Part shown: in pieces, positions 6,378 to 44,104 of the stretch
How positions within the stretch are numbered: the stretch's first letter is position 1
Layout of the letters: every line of letters begins with the position of its first letter
Origin: Pelagibacteraceae bacterium AG-325-F15
GTDB lineage: Bacteria; Pseudomonadota; Alphaproteobacteria; Pelagibacterales; Pelagibacteraceae
Direction: 5' to 3'
DNA: 44,104 bases
NCBI GenBank assembly: GCA_003282895.1
Contig: QBYI01000002.1
Span: 1-44,104 of the forward strand
Position numbers and translations under genes: made by a program
Notes under the pieces: generated by a model
What the model was told of the DNA's origin: nothing
Database searches by the model: none
Seen by the model: only the letters and a program-made list of their open reading frames with translations

Positions 6378-7154
6378 ATGAAATTTATAATTTTAGGATG
6401 TGGGAGTTCAATGGGTGTTCCACGTCCAGATGGTTTTTTTGGAAACTGCGATCCTAATGAAAAAAAAAATTATAGAACTAGATGTTCAGCTCTTATTAAG
6501 ACCGATAAAGAGAATGTTCTTATAGACACCTCTCCTGATTTACGACAACAATTACTAAGACATAAAATCAGAAAAATTAATAAAGTTTTTTATTCTCATA
6601 TGCACGCTGATCAAACTCATGGTATTAATGATTTGCGCTCTTTTTATATTAATAATAAAAAACCAATCGAAGTTTTTGCTGATAAATCTACATCAGAATA
6701 TTTAAAATATAATTTTTCTTATTGTTTTAAAAGTTATTCAAAGGAATATCCAGCAACATTAAACTTAAATATGATTAATAAAAAAAATGATTTATTCGTT
6801 ACTAGTTCTCTAAAAAAAATTAATGTTAAACCAGTCTCAGTAACACATGGAAATGTTAACTCAATTTGCTATATAATAAATAGAGAATTAGCTTATATAA
6901 GTGACGTCAGTGATATTTTAAAAAAAGACTTAAAATATTTTAAAAATTTAAAATATCTTATCATAGATTGCCTTTGGTATAATTTTCACCCATCTCATTT
7001 AAATTTAGAAAAATCTTTAAATCTAATAAATTATCTTAAACCAAAAAAAGCTATCTTAACTAATCTTTCTCCGGAGCTTGATTATAAAGTATTAAAAAAA
7101 TTAATACCTAAAAATGTTATTCCAGCTCATGATGGACTAACAATAAAATTATAA
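6378..7154 (+). CDS. MBL-fold metallohydrolase, PhnP-like
   Basis: Metallo-beta-lactamase-fold phosphodiesterase or hydrolase. GCGSSMGVPRPDGFFG near the N terminus is typical of the PhnP/YycJ branch. The metal-binding HxHxDxTHG motif is SHMHADQTHG near residue 74, with further ligands in VTHGN (about 156), YISDVSD (about 174) and DCLWYNFHPSHLN (about 200). The length of 258 residues is normal. PhnP itself acts on cyclic ribose phosphates, but no phn genes are nearby, and this housekeeping copy always sits after tatD in alphaproteobacteria, so its physiological substrate is unknown. Its last 6 bases overlap the convergent glutathione peroxidase gene. Confidence 0.85.
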   Translation: MKFIILGCGSSMGVPRPDGFFGNCDPNEKKNYRTRCSALIKTDKENVLIDTSPDLRQQLLRHKIRKINKVFYSHMHADQTHGINDLRSFYINNKKPIEVFADKSTSEYLKYNFSYCFKSYSKEYPATLNLNMINKKNDLFVTSSLKKINVKPVSVTHGNVNSICYIINRELAYISDVSDILKKDLKYFKNLKYLIIDCLWYNFHPSHLNLEKSLNLINYLKPKKAILTNLSPELDYKVLKKLIPKNVIPAHDGLTIKL

Positions 7155-7691
7155 GATATTTTCAATGGCCCTTATTAATTTTTTTGACAAAGGTTTTGTA
7201 AAAGATGCAAATGTATCTTCAACCTTACCATCTTTATTAATTAAAATTTTATGAAAATTCCACTTAGGTTCGGCTGATTTACCATGATTTTCTTTAGCCC
7301 ATTTAAAAAGTTCATGTGAATTTTTACCTTTAACCTCTGTTATTGTTGTTAGTGGAAAGTTAATATTAAAGTTCATCTCACAAAATTCTTTGACATCTTT
7401 ATTGTTATTTTTTTCTTGATTAAACGAATTTGATGGAACACCAAGAACTATCAATCCTTTATCTTTATATAAATCCCACAATTCCTGTAATTCATCATAT
7501 TGTTTTGTAAATCCGCAATAACTAGCTGTATTTACAACTAAAATAACGTTATTTTTATAATCTTTAAGATTAATTTTTTCACCAGTTATACTTTCTATAC
7601 TGAAATCATAAAACTTTTTTTCATAATTTGCTGTTGCTGGTGTCTTAAAAAAAAACATAACTATAGATAATAAAAATATTACTTTTCTCAT
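7149..7691 (-). CDS. Glutathione peroxidase family protein, probably exported
   Basis: Thiol peroxidase of the GPx/BtuE family that reduces hydroperoxides. The peroxidatic cysteine is C59 in NTASYCGFT, followed by the Gln of NSFNQE and the Trp of KWNFHK that complete the catalytic set. It is a Cys rather than a selenocysteine enzyme. A hydrophobic N-terminal stretch (residues 1-21, ending ATA-NYE) looks like a signal peptide and suggests periplasmic action. Bacterial enzymes of this type usually draw electrons from thioredoxin rather than glutathione. At 180 residues the length fits a mature domain of about 160. It starts 4 bases inside the end of nhaA. Confidence 0.92.
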   Translation of the reverse strand: MRKVIFLLSIVMFFFKTPATANYEKKFYDFSIESITGEKINLKDYKNNVILVVNTASYCGFTKQYDELQELWDLYKDKGLIVLGVPSNSFNQEKNNNKDVKEFCEMNFNINFPLTTITEVKGKNSHELFKWAKENHGKSAEPKWNFHKILINKDGKVEDTFASFTKPLSKKLIRAIENIL

Positions 7692-8869
7692 TGATTTGGT
7701 TTATTTGGAGTCAATAATATTAAGAAATAACCAAATAAAGTAGATAATAATGATCCAGTTAATACTCCAATTTTTACACCATCCATATATTGCATATTTT
7801 CAACAAAAGCTAAATTTCCAACAAATAAACTCATTGTAAAACCAATACCTGTAAGAACACCAACACCATAAAAATTGTACCAACTTGTGTTATTAGGCAT
7901 TTGAGCTACTTTTAATTTTATAGATGCATAAGAAAATATAAATACTCCCAATTGTTTGCCTAAGAATAGTCCTAGTACTATACCCAGAGGAACTTTATCT
8001 AATAATGAAGCAAAAGTTAATCCTTCCAATGAAACACCAGCATTAGCAAAGGCAAATAAAGGCATTATACCAAAAGCAACATATGGACTAATTGCATGCT
8101 CTACTTTAATTAATAATGAAAAATCTTTTTCTTTTTTTCTATGAGGTATCGTCATAGCTAATAAAACTCCAGCTATTGTCGCATGTATACCTGAATTATG
8201 AGTAAAATCCCAAAGGAAAATTCCAACAATTAGATACGGTAAAAACTTTTTAATATTAAACTTATTAATTACTAACAAAATAACAAAAGCTAATAACATT
8301 AATGTTAAATATTTTACGCTTAAATCTCCTGAGTAGAAAAGAGCAATTATCACAATCGCTCCTAAATCATCAATTATTGCTAAAGCAGTTAAAAAAACTT
8401 TTAAAGATAATGGAACTCTTTTGCCAAGCAAAGATAAAACACCTAAAGAAAAAGCAATATCAGTGGCAGATGGTATTGCCCAACCATTTAAAGTTTCGCT
8501 ATCACTTAAATTTATGAAAACATAAAATAATGCAGGTACTAGCATTCCACCTACAGCAGCTATTATTGGTAATAAAGCCTGCTTAATATTTGAAAGTTCA
8601 CCCTGTAAAAACTCTCTTTTTATTTCTAAAGTAACAAAAAAAAAGAAAATAGCCATTAAGGCATCATTTATCCAATGTAATACAGATAATTTTAATCCAA
8701 AATTATTTATTCCTATAAATAGATATTTATTCAAAGTAGAAAAATATAATCCGGCTAAATTTGAATTACTAATAACCAAAGCAACTATCGCAGCAAAAAG
8801 CAATACCAGTCCACTTGCTGCTTCTAGTTTAAAAAACCACTTAAAAGGTTTAGATATGTAGTTAATCAT
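7688..8869 (-). CDS. nhaA: Na+/H+ antiporter NhaA
   Basis: Inner-membrane antiporter that exports Na+ for H+ and sets internal pH and Na+. About 12 hydrophobic segments are visible. The paired aspartates of the ion site are in ALAIIDDLGAIVIIALFYS near residue 165, and the N-terminal KWFFKLEAASGLVLL is characteristic. PSATDIAFSLGVLSLLGKRVP and GFTMSLFVGNLAF are strongly conserved family blocks. The length of 393 residues is standard. Na+ antiport suits a marine cell. It overlaps glutathione peroxidase by 4 bases and lies 6 bases after the zinc-ribbon gene, so the three minus-strand genes probably form one unit. Confidence 0.96.
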   Translation of the reverse strand: MINYISKPFKWFFKLEAASGLVLLFAAIVALVISNSNLAGLYFSTLNKYLFIGINNFGLKLSVLHWINDALMAIFFFFVTLEIKREFLQGELSNIKQALLPIIAAVGGMLVPALFYVFINLSDSETLNGWAIPSATDIAFSLGVLSLLGKRVPLSLKVFLTALAIIDDLGAIVIIALFYSGDLSVKYLTLMLLAFVILLVINKFNIKKFLPYLIVGIFLWDFTHNSGIHATIAGVLLAMTIPHRKKEKDFSLLIKVEHAISPYVAFGIMPLFAFANAGVSLEGLTFASLLDKVPLGIVLGLFLGKQLGVFIFSYASIKLKVAQMPNNTSWYNFYGVGVLTGIGFTMSLFVGNLAFVENMQYMDGVKIGVLTGSLLSTLFGYFLILLTPNKPNQ

Positions 8870-8875
8870 ATATAA

Positions 8876-9352
8876 TTAAGTTAGGTCTATAATAAATAGT
8901 TTGATATCTTGCAATGTTTCAAAAAGGTTAAATAGAAAGATTTCTAATTCAGGAAAGACATTAATTAACGGTGTTTTTAATGTATCTATTAGAATAACAA
9001 AAACAGCAAATGAAATAATTAAAACGATTATATATGATAAAAATTTACCAAATGTAATATTTTTAGATCTTTTAGGTAAATCGCTATTTTTAATGATATC
9101 TTCATTCTTAATATCTGTATCTAATTCTTGATCTAATTTTGCTTTTAATGGTTTAGGGTTATTGGAAATTGATACATTGTTTTCATTGGATTCAATTTTT
9201 TCTTCAATATTTTCTTCTAACTTAAGTGGTTCAGCAATTTTATAAAACCAATTATAATTACATGAACCACATTGAAGATTACGGCCTTTCGATGGAATTA
9301 AAGCATTTTCAATTTTAAATTTTTTATTACAAGAAGGGCAAGTGATAATCAT
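8876..9352 (-). CDS. MJ0042-type zinc-ribbon membrane protein
   Basis: A 158-residue protein that begins with a rubredoxin-like zinc ribbon (IITCPSCNKKFKI, then NLQCGSCNYNWF), matching the MJ0042/zinc_ribbon_4 family common in alphaproteobacteria. A low-complexity Glu/Asn/Lys linker (about 45-95) leads to a single membrane segment (about residues 103-124, FLSYIIVLIISFAVFVILI) and a short C-terminal tail. The function is unknown; the ribbon should be cytoplasmic. In many alphaproteobacteria this gene neighbours ftsE/ftsX, but here it neighbours nhaA. The start ATG follows an AAGAAG stretch. Confidence 0.8.
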   Translation of the reverse strand: MIITCPSCNKKFKIENALIPSKGRNLQCGSCNYNWFYKIAEPLKLEENIEEKIESNENNVSISNNPKPLKAKLDQELDTDIKNEDIIKNSDLPKRSKNITFGKFLSYIIVLIISFAVFVILIDTLKTPLINVFPELEIFLFNLFETLQDIKLFIIDLT

Positions 9353-9424
9353 TTCTTCTTATATAACAGATTTTCATAAAAAAACTTGATTTTTACTAAT
9401 CTTTACACTTTGAAATAATTAAAA

Positions 9425-9441
9425 TGTACTGTAATAGTACA
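9425..9441. promoter_or_regulatory. Palindrome just upstream of tRNA-Pro
   Basis: TGTACT (9425-9430) and AGTACA (9436-9441) form a perfect 6-bp inverted repeat around GTAAT, ending 6 bases before the mature tRNA 5' end. It may be a small hairpin in the tRNA 5' leader or a protein site in the tRNA promoter. The sequence alone cannot separate these. Confidence 0.4.
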
Positions 9442-9447
9442 TCGGAT

Positions 9448-9524
<77 letters not shown>

Positions 9525-9530
9525 TATATT

Positions 9531-9812
9531 ATGAATAAAGCAATAATTTATATTCCAAATAAAAATCCCATGCAATCTGGAATAGCTAAGAATGATAAAT
9601 GGATTTTAGAATTTAGAACTAAAAATCCCACAAAAAATCCATTAATGGGATGGGAAAGTTCATCAGATACATTAACAGAATTAAAATTAGAATTTTCTTC
9701 TAAAGAACTAGCTATAAATTATGCAAAAAAAAAGAAAATAGACTATGAATTAATTGAACCTAAAAAAAGAAAAACTGTAAAAAAATCATATGCAGATAAT
9801 TTTTTAAAATAA
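9531..9812 (+). CDS. NDUFS4-like NADH dehydrogenase (complex I) accessory subunit
   Basis: A 93-residue protein of the ETC complex I subunit family (NDUFS4/18-kDa), a supernumerary matrix-side subunit shared by mitochondria and alphaproteobacteria. The conserved core is visible: AIIYIPNKNPMQSG at the N terminus, WILEFRT, NPLMGWESSSDTL (usual LMGW-x-S-S-D-T) and LEFSSKELAINYAKKKKIDYEL. The C terminus is Lys/Arg-rich. The real mRNA, if the tRNA is excised, would have a 6-base leader and no Shine-Dalgarno sequence. It ends 3 bases before the SbmA-like gene. Assignment is firm; the role is structural or assembly. Confidence 0.88.
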   Translation: MNKAIIYIPNKNPMQSGIAKNDKWILEFRTKNPTKNPLMGWESSSDTLTELKLEFSSKELAINYAKKKKIDYELIEPKKRKTVKKSYADNFLK

Positions 9813-41944: not shown

Positions 41945-42934
41945 ATGATTACTGGAAAATATCCTAACTTAAGACTAAGAAGAACTAGAAAACAGTCGTG
42001 GTCTAGAAGACTAATTCAAGAAAATACACTTACTGCAAATGACTTTATTTTGCCTGTATTTTTAATTGATGGATCTAATAAAAAAGAATCAGTAGCTACG
42101 ATGCCTGGCGTATATAGATATACAATCAATAGATTATCTCAAATCATTGATAAAGCATTAAAAATAGGTATTCCAATGGTTGCTCTTTTTCCAAAAACTA
42201 AAAATAGCTTGAAGAATGAAATTGGATCAGAATCGTTAAATGAAAATAATTTAGTTTGCAAAGCTATCATGGAAATTAAAAAAAAATATAAAAATCAAAT
42301 TGGGATAATGTGCGATGTGGCTCTTGATCCGTATACATCACATGGTCATGACGGATTGATTAAATCAAATCAAATAATTAACGATGAAACAATAGAAGTT
42401 TTGGTCAATCAATCTCTATTACAAGCAGAGATGGGTTGTGATGTATTGGCCCCTTCCGATATGATGGATGGCAGAATTGGAAAAATTAGAAAAGCTTTAG
42501 ATAAATTAAACTATCATAATGTTCAAATTTTGTCTTATGCAGCAAAGTATGCTTCAAGTTTTTATGGACCATTTAGAGATGCTGTAGGTTCTAAAGGATT
42601 GTTAAAAGGTGATAAAAAAACTTATCAAATGGATTTTAAAAATAGTGACGAAGCTTTAAGGGAAGTGGCACTTGATATTAAGGAGGGTGCAGACATGGTC
42701 ATGGTTAAACCAGGTATGCCTTATTTAGACATTATTAAATCGGTAAAAGAAAAATTTAAAATACCTGTATTTGCTTATCAAGTATCAGGAGAATATAGTT
42801 TAATTGCCAATGCTATAAAGAAAAAATTAGTTAACGAAGATATTATATATGAAAGTTTAGTAGGATTTAAAAGAGCTGGGGCAAATGCTATTGTTAGTTA
42901 TTACGCAGATAGGATAGATAAAATAATAAAATAA
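41945..42934 (+). CDS. hemB: Delta-aminolevulinic acid dehydratase (porphobilinogen synthase)
   Basis: Condenses two aminolevulinate molecules to porphobilinogen in haem synthesis. RLRRTRKQSWSRRLIQEN near the N terminus, VALDPYTSHGHDGL near 121, the Schiff-base lysines in SYAAKYASSFYGPFRDAVGS near 200 and MVMVKPGMPYLDI near 253 are diagnostic. The metal site has Asp residues (DVALDPYTSHGHD) instead of the three-cysteine zinc site, so it is the Mg-dependent type seen in alphaproteobacteria. The length of 329 residues is normal. Its stop abuts recO with no gap. Confidence 0.96.
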   Translation: MITGKYPNLRLRRTRKQSWSRRLIQENTLTANDFILPVFLIDGSNKKESVATMPGVYRYTINRLSQIIDKALKIGIPMVALFPKTKNSLKNEIGSESLNENNLVCKAIMEIKKKYKNQIGIMCDVALDPYTSHGHDGLIKSNQIINDETIEVLVNQSLLQAEMGCDVLAPSDMMDGRIGKIRKALDKLNYHNVQILSYAAKYASSFYGPFRDAVGSKGLLKGDKKTYQMDFKNSDEALREVALDIKEGADMVMVKPGMPYLDIIKSVKEKFKIPVFAYQVSGEYSLIANAIKKKLVNEDIIYESLVGFKRAGANAIVSYYADRIDKIIK

Positions 42935-43615
42935 TTATTTAAAAGAATTTAAAAACAATAATCTACTATTAGGATAATTTAAATTATTTGGTTTTAAAAT
43001 AGTTTTATCAAGATAATCTCCAACTAATTTTAAACCACTTAATAAAATTTTAATGTCATTAACTTCAATATCTTTTTCAATTAAAAAATTTGGAACATAT
43101 TTTTTTTCAGTTAAAGAACTTGCAAAATAAACTGTTTCATTTTTAACTTTATCTTTTTTTACTAGTTTTTCTAATTCAAGATCATACCCTAATAGTTTAA
43201 GTAATTCTAATTCCCAAAATACATATTTTTTAAGCCAGTCATTGTCTTTTAAAATCATAAAAAAATTCTCAATTATTCTATAAATCTTTAAATTTGCTTG
43301 AGATTCTGCTGTTAGAATTTTAATCAAATTTACTGCTGAAGTAATACATGAAAGCTTTTGTTTATGATCAAAATATAGTGGACTGAAAGCTTGTAAAATT
43401 TCAACTTTGAAATATCCAATCTTATTTTCATTTTTAGAGTTATAATTTACATGTAACTTATTGCCAATTTGAAGATAATTTTTAATCTTTTTAGAAGTTC
43501 CACCAAATATAATACCCACTACTTTGCCGTGATCTTTTGTGTAAATTTCAACGATTAAAGAATTTTCACTATATCTATTCTTGTTTATTAAAAAACCTTC
43601 ATCAATCCAATTCAT
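42935..43615 (-). CDS. recO: DNA repair protein RecO
   Basis: Mediates RecA loading and strand annealing in RecFOR repair. The N-terminal OB fold starts MNWIDEGFLINKNRYSENSLIVEIYTKDHG-like sequence, with KVVGIIFGGTSKK near 31-43. A helical C-terminal domain contains FWELELLKLLGYDLELEK near 143-160. The four-cysteine zinc module seen in many RecO proteins is absent. At 226 residues it is slightly short. It lies 7 bases after the rnc stop, so rnc-recO is contiguous, without the era gene that often lies between. Confidence 0.88.
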   Translation of the reverse strand: MNWIDEGFLINKNRYSENSLIVEIYTKDHGKVVGIIFGGTSKKIKNYLQIGNKLHVNYNSKNENKIGYFKVEILQAFSPLYFDHKQKLSCITSAVNLIKILTAESQANLKIYRIIENFFMILKDNDWLKKYVFWELELLKLLGYDLELEKLVKKDKVKNETVYFASSLTEKKYVPNFLIEKDIEVNDIKILLSGLKLVGDYLDKTILKPNNLNYPNSRLLFLNSFK

Positions 43616-43622
43616 TTTTCAA

Positions 43623-44036
43623 TTACTTAATACTTTTAAGACATTCAATTGCAGCATTTTGTTCAGCGTCTTTTTTTGATTTACCAAGAGAAATAAAATA
43701 TTTTGTATTAGGAAGTTTGACGCCAACTTTGAACAATGGTTTATGACGAGGACCTGTATTAGAAATTAATTTATAAATTGGAAGTTTTTTAAAATTTTTT
43801 AAAGCTAATTCTTGTAATTTTGTCTTAGCATCAATTTGGGTTACTACACTTTTTTTAATATGATTTTTCCATAAATTTAATATTATTTTTTCAGTATTGT
43901 TGAATCCCTTATCAAGATATAATGCACCAATTAAAGCCTCACAACAATCAGAAATAATTTTGTCTTCAATTTTTATTTTTTTATTATTAGGATTAAAAGT
44001 TAAAATATATTTTTCCAAATTTATATTTTTGGCAAT
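43623..44036 (-). pseudogene. rnc: Ribonuclease III, C-terminal part of a gene broken by an inverted junction
   Basis: Double-strand-specific endoribonuclease of rRNA processing. Visible are the second half of the catalytic domain (IAKNINLEKYIL, then EDKIISDCCEALIGALYLDKG with the catalytic Asp/Glu) and the dsRNA-binding domain (DAKTKLQELALKNFKK to SKKDAEQNAAIECLKS). The frame stays homologous to RNase III up to about 44036, beyond an apparent TTG start at 44018, then stops matching. The missing N-terminal part (with FLGDRVLG) appears on the other strand immediately beyond. Most probably the genomic gene is intact and the break is technical. Confidence 0.88.
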
Positions 44037-44104
44037 TTTTAGGTGATCGTGTTCTTGGATTAATTATAGCTAAAAAACTTTTAGAAATTTATCCTGATGA
44101 AAAA
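44036..44104 (+). pseudogene. rnc: Ribonuclease III N-terminal fragment in inverted orientation
   Basis: Reading the + strand from 44036 gives 23 residues starting FLGDRVLGLIIAKKLLEIYP and ending DEK, the first signature block of RNase III with the catalytic FLGD-(S/R)-VL. It runs to the window end. Its orientation is opposite to the rest of rnc at 43623-44036. The two parts meet at an A/T run (AATTTTT, 44034-44040), which could provide microhomology for a fold-back junction. Confidence 0.85.

Follow-up and report, generated by a model that had tools for sequence, protein, structure and literature searches.

An inverted piece of the RNase III gene at the end of a SAR11 contig: very probably a fold-back chimera of genome amplification

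The RNase III gene (rnc) at the end of the contig analysed here is encoded partly on one strand and partly on the other, which raises the question of whether a living SAR11 cell carries an inversion inside this gene or whether the contig end is a technical product. The window is the whole contig (C2), 44104 bases long, and its last base is thus the contig end; it belongs to a SAR11-type assembly (G000) of 75 contigs and 1,003,629 bases that is 70.5% complete. As outlined below, this end is almost certainly a technical artefact and not real biology, and very probably a fold-back (inverted) chimera produced by multiple displacement amplification (MDA).

Both pieces at the contig end belong to one rnc gene and lie on opposite strands (Table 1). 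The minus strand from 43623 to 44039 encodes 138 residues that match PF14622 (profile positions 67-122 of 128) and the dsrm domain PF00035; this part comprises the RNase III domain from the I of IAKN onward plus the dsRNA-binding domain. On the plus strand, positions 44036-44104 form 23 codons (FLGDRVLG...DEK) that run in the sense direction up to the contig end. Their translation, FLGDRVLGLIIAKKLLEIYPDEK, matches positions 5-26 of 102 of PF00636 with an E value of 0.0038 and a score of 18.4 bits, which lies under the curated cut-off of 27, as expected for a query of only 23 residues. In the initial annotation, the C-terminal coding sequence of rnc occupied the minus strand as far as roughly 44036, and the FLGDRVLG block the plus strand from 44036 onward. 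Both placements are borne out, the first by the Pfam matches and DNA collinearity with the nearest relative, and the second by the translation, the PF00636 match and the DNA match to the same relative (see below). The gene next after rnc is recO, and the context there is undisturbed. In the window (42935-44036) as well as in the relative AG-325-A21, recO follows rnc directly, without era between them; the usual gene order is rnc-era-recO.

Table 1. Features at the contig end (window positions)
Feature	Positions	Strand	Basis
recO	42935..43615	-	Pfam RecO_N and RecO_C; collinear with contig C3 of relative G041
rnc, C-terminal part (N-terminal part absent)	43623..44036	-	PF14622, PF00636, PF00035; collinear with L137 (AG-325-A21) at 94.6%
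Probable chimeric junction, switch somewhere in 3-5 shared bases (AAT or AATTT)	44034..44038	.	native sense and antisense of L137 and L138
Inverted internal rnc piece FLGDRVLGLIIAKKLLEIYPDEK	44036..44104	+	translation; PF00636; L137:2876-2946, plus strand, at 93.0%

The native arrangement of the gene can be read from related genomes. The nearest relative found, AG-325-A21 (locus L137), contains a complete rnc of 220 residues with which both window pieces are collinear. Window positions 42001-44036 align to this locus on the minus strand with 94.6% identity over 2036 nt, and positions 44034-44104 align to L137:2876-2946 on the plus strand (93.0%, E 4.6e-25). Because these DNA matches lie on opposite strands, the opposite orientation of the two pieces is real and not a chance resemblance. 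Eighteen codons (54 nt) between the two parts are absent from the window, and the parts are spaced equally in 94 of 94 distinct genes of relatives.

This native order is general among close relatives. A tblastn search of 98 loci (L108-L125 plus the best 80 of 324 from a second relatives search), in which a gene counted as uninterrupted when the match extended from residue 40 or earlier through residue 200 or later of 220, showed that 97 of them carry a single rnc without interruption on one strand, with 94 distinct DNA sequences; a stricter motif pattern matched rnc in 77 of the same 98 loci. The inversion of the window is absent from all 97 loci in which rnc can be traced through the stretch. 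The comparison with related genomes that the initial annotation had called for thus gives the native order in all loci except one at a contig edge (L113, relative G007), where rnc is cut by the contig end. That G007 shares the inversion was considered and ruled out, as the gene keeps its orientation from one of its contigs to the other, C14 and C20 (L219 and L220), which have exactly 127 bases in common. These two contigs constitute an unjoined break inside rnc. In addition, among 11 loci brought in by weak DNA matches (L126-L136), seven have one uninterrupted rnc and four have no rnc match. In 13 genomes both query pieces match a single contig in opposite query orientations, which is the native arrangement; the distance between the pieces is 52-57 bases in 11 of these genomes, and 109 and 114 bases in the other two, whose alignments ended early.

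The rest of the gene was not found in the assembly, which yielded no further RNase III match either; the other matches are short (14-34 bases) and are taken as chance. Upstream of rnc, AG-325-A21 encodes an ACT-domain protein, a phosphoribosyltransferase, pdxJ, acpS and a signal peptidase. Only bases 3 to 146 of this upstream region were found in the assembly, at the extreme end of contig C15, besides one 47-base match in C12. C15 stops at the position corresponding to L137:146, so that some 2.73 kb of native sequence next to the junction, up to L137:2876, was not found in the assembly. The second arm of a fold-back does not lie in the window either, as the reverse complement of positions 44034-44104 shares no 15-mer with it.

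An inverted join of this kind is well known from amplified DNA. Names with AG numbers follow a single-cell convention, and many near relatives of the source genome bear names of this type (AG-, SAG-MED); several titles, including that of AG-325-A21, say MAG. These names, the fragmented and 70.5% complete assembly and the fold-back-like contigs described below together suggest that MDA was used on the sample. According to Lasken and Stockwell (2007; PMC1855051), 406 of 475 MDA chimeras were inverted, which makes this the commonest class, and they mostly joined segments less than 10 kb apart. Of the inverted chimeras under 10 kb, 93.5% had short complementarity. The authors explain inverted joining by a 3' end that is displaced and then anneals to a displaced strand close by, and they argue against a major role of hairpin self-priming. 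For the contig end analysed here, a 3' end running antisense through rnc would come loose during amplification and pair through some 3-5 bases with a nearby site, whereupon copying would turn round. The sites involved would be the codons for IAKN and those for FLGD, which are separated by about 125 bases. The end could be freed at IAKN and prime at FLGD on the opposite strand; alternatively, it could already have reached FLGD and fold back on itself at IAKN; both jump directions yield an identical duplex, so that the contig is equally consistent with either. The product would read into rnc and back out again, and the contig would stop within the loop of about 125 bases, before the second arm.

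The bases shared at the junction are compatible with a chimera and no proof of one. The window agrees with the native sense strand of AG-325-A21 from 44034 onward and with its native antisense strand as far as 44036, which leaves AAT (3 bases) in common; with the locus L138 of a second close relative the common run is AATTT (44034-44038, 5 bases). The microhomology is therefore probably 3-5 bases long, as measured against relatives and not against the native sequence of the window itself. The initial annotation had proposed an overlap of seven bases, AATTTTT (44034-44040), which finds no support in either relative and would require the codon AAA at a site where one of 94 relatives has it. Counted from 44034 across the 94 relatives, the shared run is absent in 56, five bases long in 25 and one to three bases long in 13; counted outward from 44036 in 77 loci, it is five bases in 33, four in one, three in 13 and one in 30. 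The 56 relatives without a shared run mostly reflect divergence, and the microhomology still appears weak. Random inverted junctions drawn within 4 kb around rnc in L137 share at least 3 bases in 10.0% of cases, at least 5 in 1.6% and at least 7 in 0.2%. As a sign of the short complementarity (2-21 nt) expected of an MDA inverted chimera, the overlaps of 3 nt (L137) and 5 nt (L138) constitute weak evidence, given the many relatives without a shared run and the frequency of such overlaps at random junctions. The two junction points lie 128 nt apart in L137 (2876 and 3004).

Other contigs of the same assembly provide an additional line of evidence, since two of them look like fold-back chimeras themselves. 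The 150 contig ends were screened in a set that comprised half of the assembly, with 2 kb per end for C1-C20, so that fold-backs in the interior of these contigs would be passed over. In only two of the 75 contigs, C39 and C41, does one end recur as the reverse complement of the other. C39 (L070) has an exact terminal inverted repeat of 686 nt (1-686 and 8998-9683) with 8311 bases between the arms, and its arm carries the end of a glutamate-synthase-like gene. Its photolyase reading frame has only 183 aa and stops at the left inner arm edge; typical photolyases exceed twice this length. Compared with relative G041, C39 gives only three weak, uninformative matches. C41 (L072) has an exact terminal inverted repeat of 1707 nt (1-1707 and 7116-8822) with 5408 bases between the arms. 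Of its two acetyl-CoA synthetase copies, which occupy opposite ends of the contig, one is complete (679 aa) and the other is inverted and partial, with homology lost near the inner arm edge. In G041, parts of both C41 arms match a single site with 70% identity and in opposing orientations; this site is perhaps only a homologue. The rnc junction is invisible to such a screen because its second arm is not reached, and the assembly may contain more ends of this type.

The position at which the contig stops was compared with what is known of single-cell assembly. No terminal words of 20 to 77 bases common to different contig ends were found among the assembly ends screened, C39 and C41 matching only themselves, and the smallest contig has 2089 bases. 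The last word length of the published SPAdes procedure for single cells is presumably 55. Derivation of the exact end at 44104 from this procedure (100-base end trim, contigs >2000 bases kept; PMC5519541) was tried and rejected, as the end estimated by hand was off by about 10 bases at word length 55. The size of the smallest contig and the lack of shared ends are compatible with this procedure, the use of which for the present assembly is an assumption.

Two other explanations have to be weighed against an MDA fold-back. A chimera that arose while the library was prepared, or a join of low-coverage reads by the assembler alone, without any contribution of MDA, has a slight chance of being correct. 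Coverage was presumably poor where the contig end adjoins the hole of about 2.7 kb, and a library chimera still agrees with the data since the long arms of C39 and C41 leave room for one. However, these two contigs point, without being decisive, to a process that acted on the sample more than once. MDA has been well described as giving rise to exactly this inverted class (PMC1855051), and library chimeras could have the same effect. The chance is slighter still for a real local inversion of the FLGD-IAKN segment of about 125 bp by a site-specific flip or a replication template switch: here the contig would go on into the antisense of the rnc N-terminus, and the last 71 bases alone fit equally well because the contig ends before the segment is complete, but such an inversion would disrupt the one RNase III match that the assembly has, is seen in none of the traceable loci, leaves the contig end unexplained, is made improbable by the other fold-backs and, with a flanking inverted repeat of only 3-5 nt in two close relatives that is unconserved, gives no sign of an invertible element. 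It is accordingly most improbable that a living SAR11 cell carries about 125 bp flipped inside its only rnc and has RNase III switched off. The initial annotation had judged a technical artefact likelier than a real inversion, and the uninterrupted gene in 97 of 98 loci of relatives, the lack of a second RNase III match, the roughly 2.7 kb not found in the assembly and the C39 and C41 contigs all argue in the same direction. It had also named continuous read coverage across the junction, together with a full-length rnc elsewhere or the same inversion in independent genomes, as counter-evidence; no full-length rnc was found elsewhere in the assembly, and none of the traceable loci of relatives shows the inversion.

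The rnc case matters only as a warning. Contig ends from amplified single cells can bear short inverted tails that are annotated as broken or split genes. In the present contig, where the second arm is not reached, the tail is missed by an inverted-repeat search at contig ends and is caught by comparison with a relative. The last 70 or so bases of the contig are unfit for gene order, pseudogene calls or contig joining.

Compared with known systems, the locus resembles an ordinary SAR11 rnc between lepB and recO, as its sequence and neighbours are like those of AG-325-A21 (94.6% DNA identity), with the difference that the gene in the window is broken and an internal piece is turned round. Unlike a site-specific invertible DNA element, the rnc segment has no conserved flanking inverted repeats, and only the native orientation, not both, occurs in the 97 loci. 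The inverted MDA chimeras described in PMC1855051 differ from the present case in that the latter is known solely from the end of an assembled contig, which stops short of the second arm. They share with it the inverted joining of segments of one region, perhaps a few common bases at the junction, the closeness of the segments in the genome (128 nt in L137, and mostly <10 kb in the published chimeras) and, with C39 and C41, the presence of other apparent fold-backs in the same sample.
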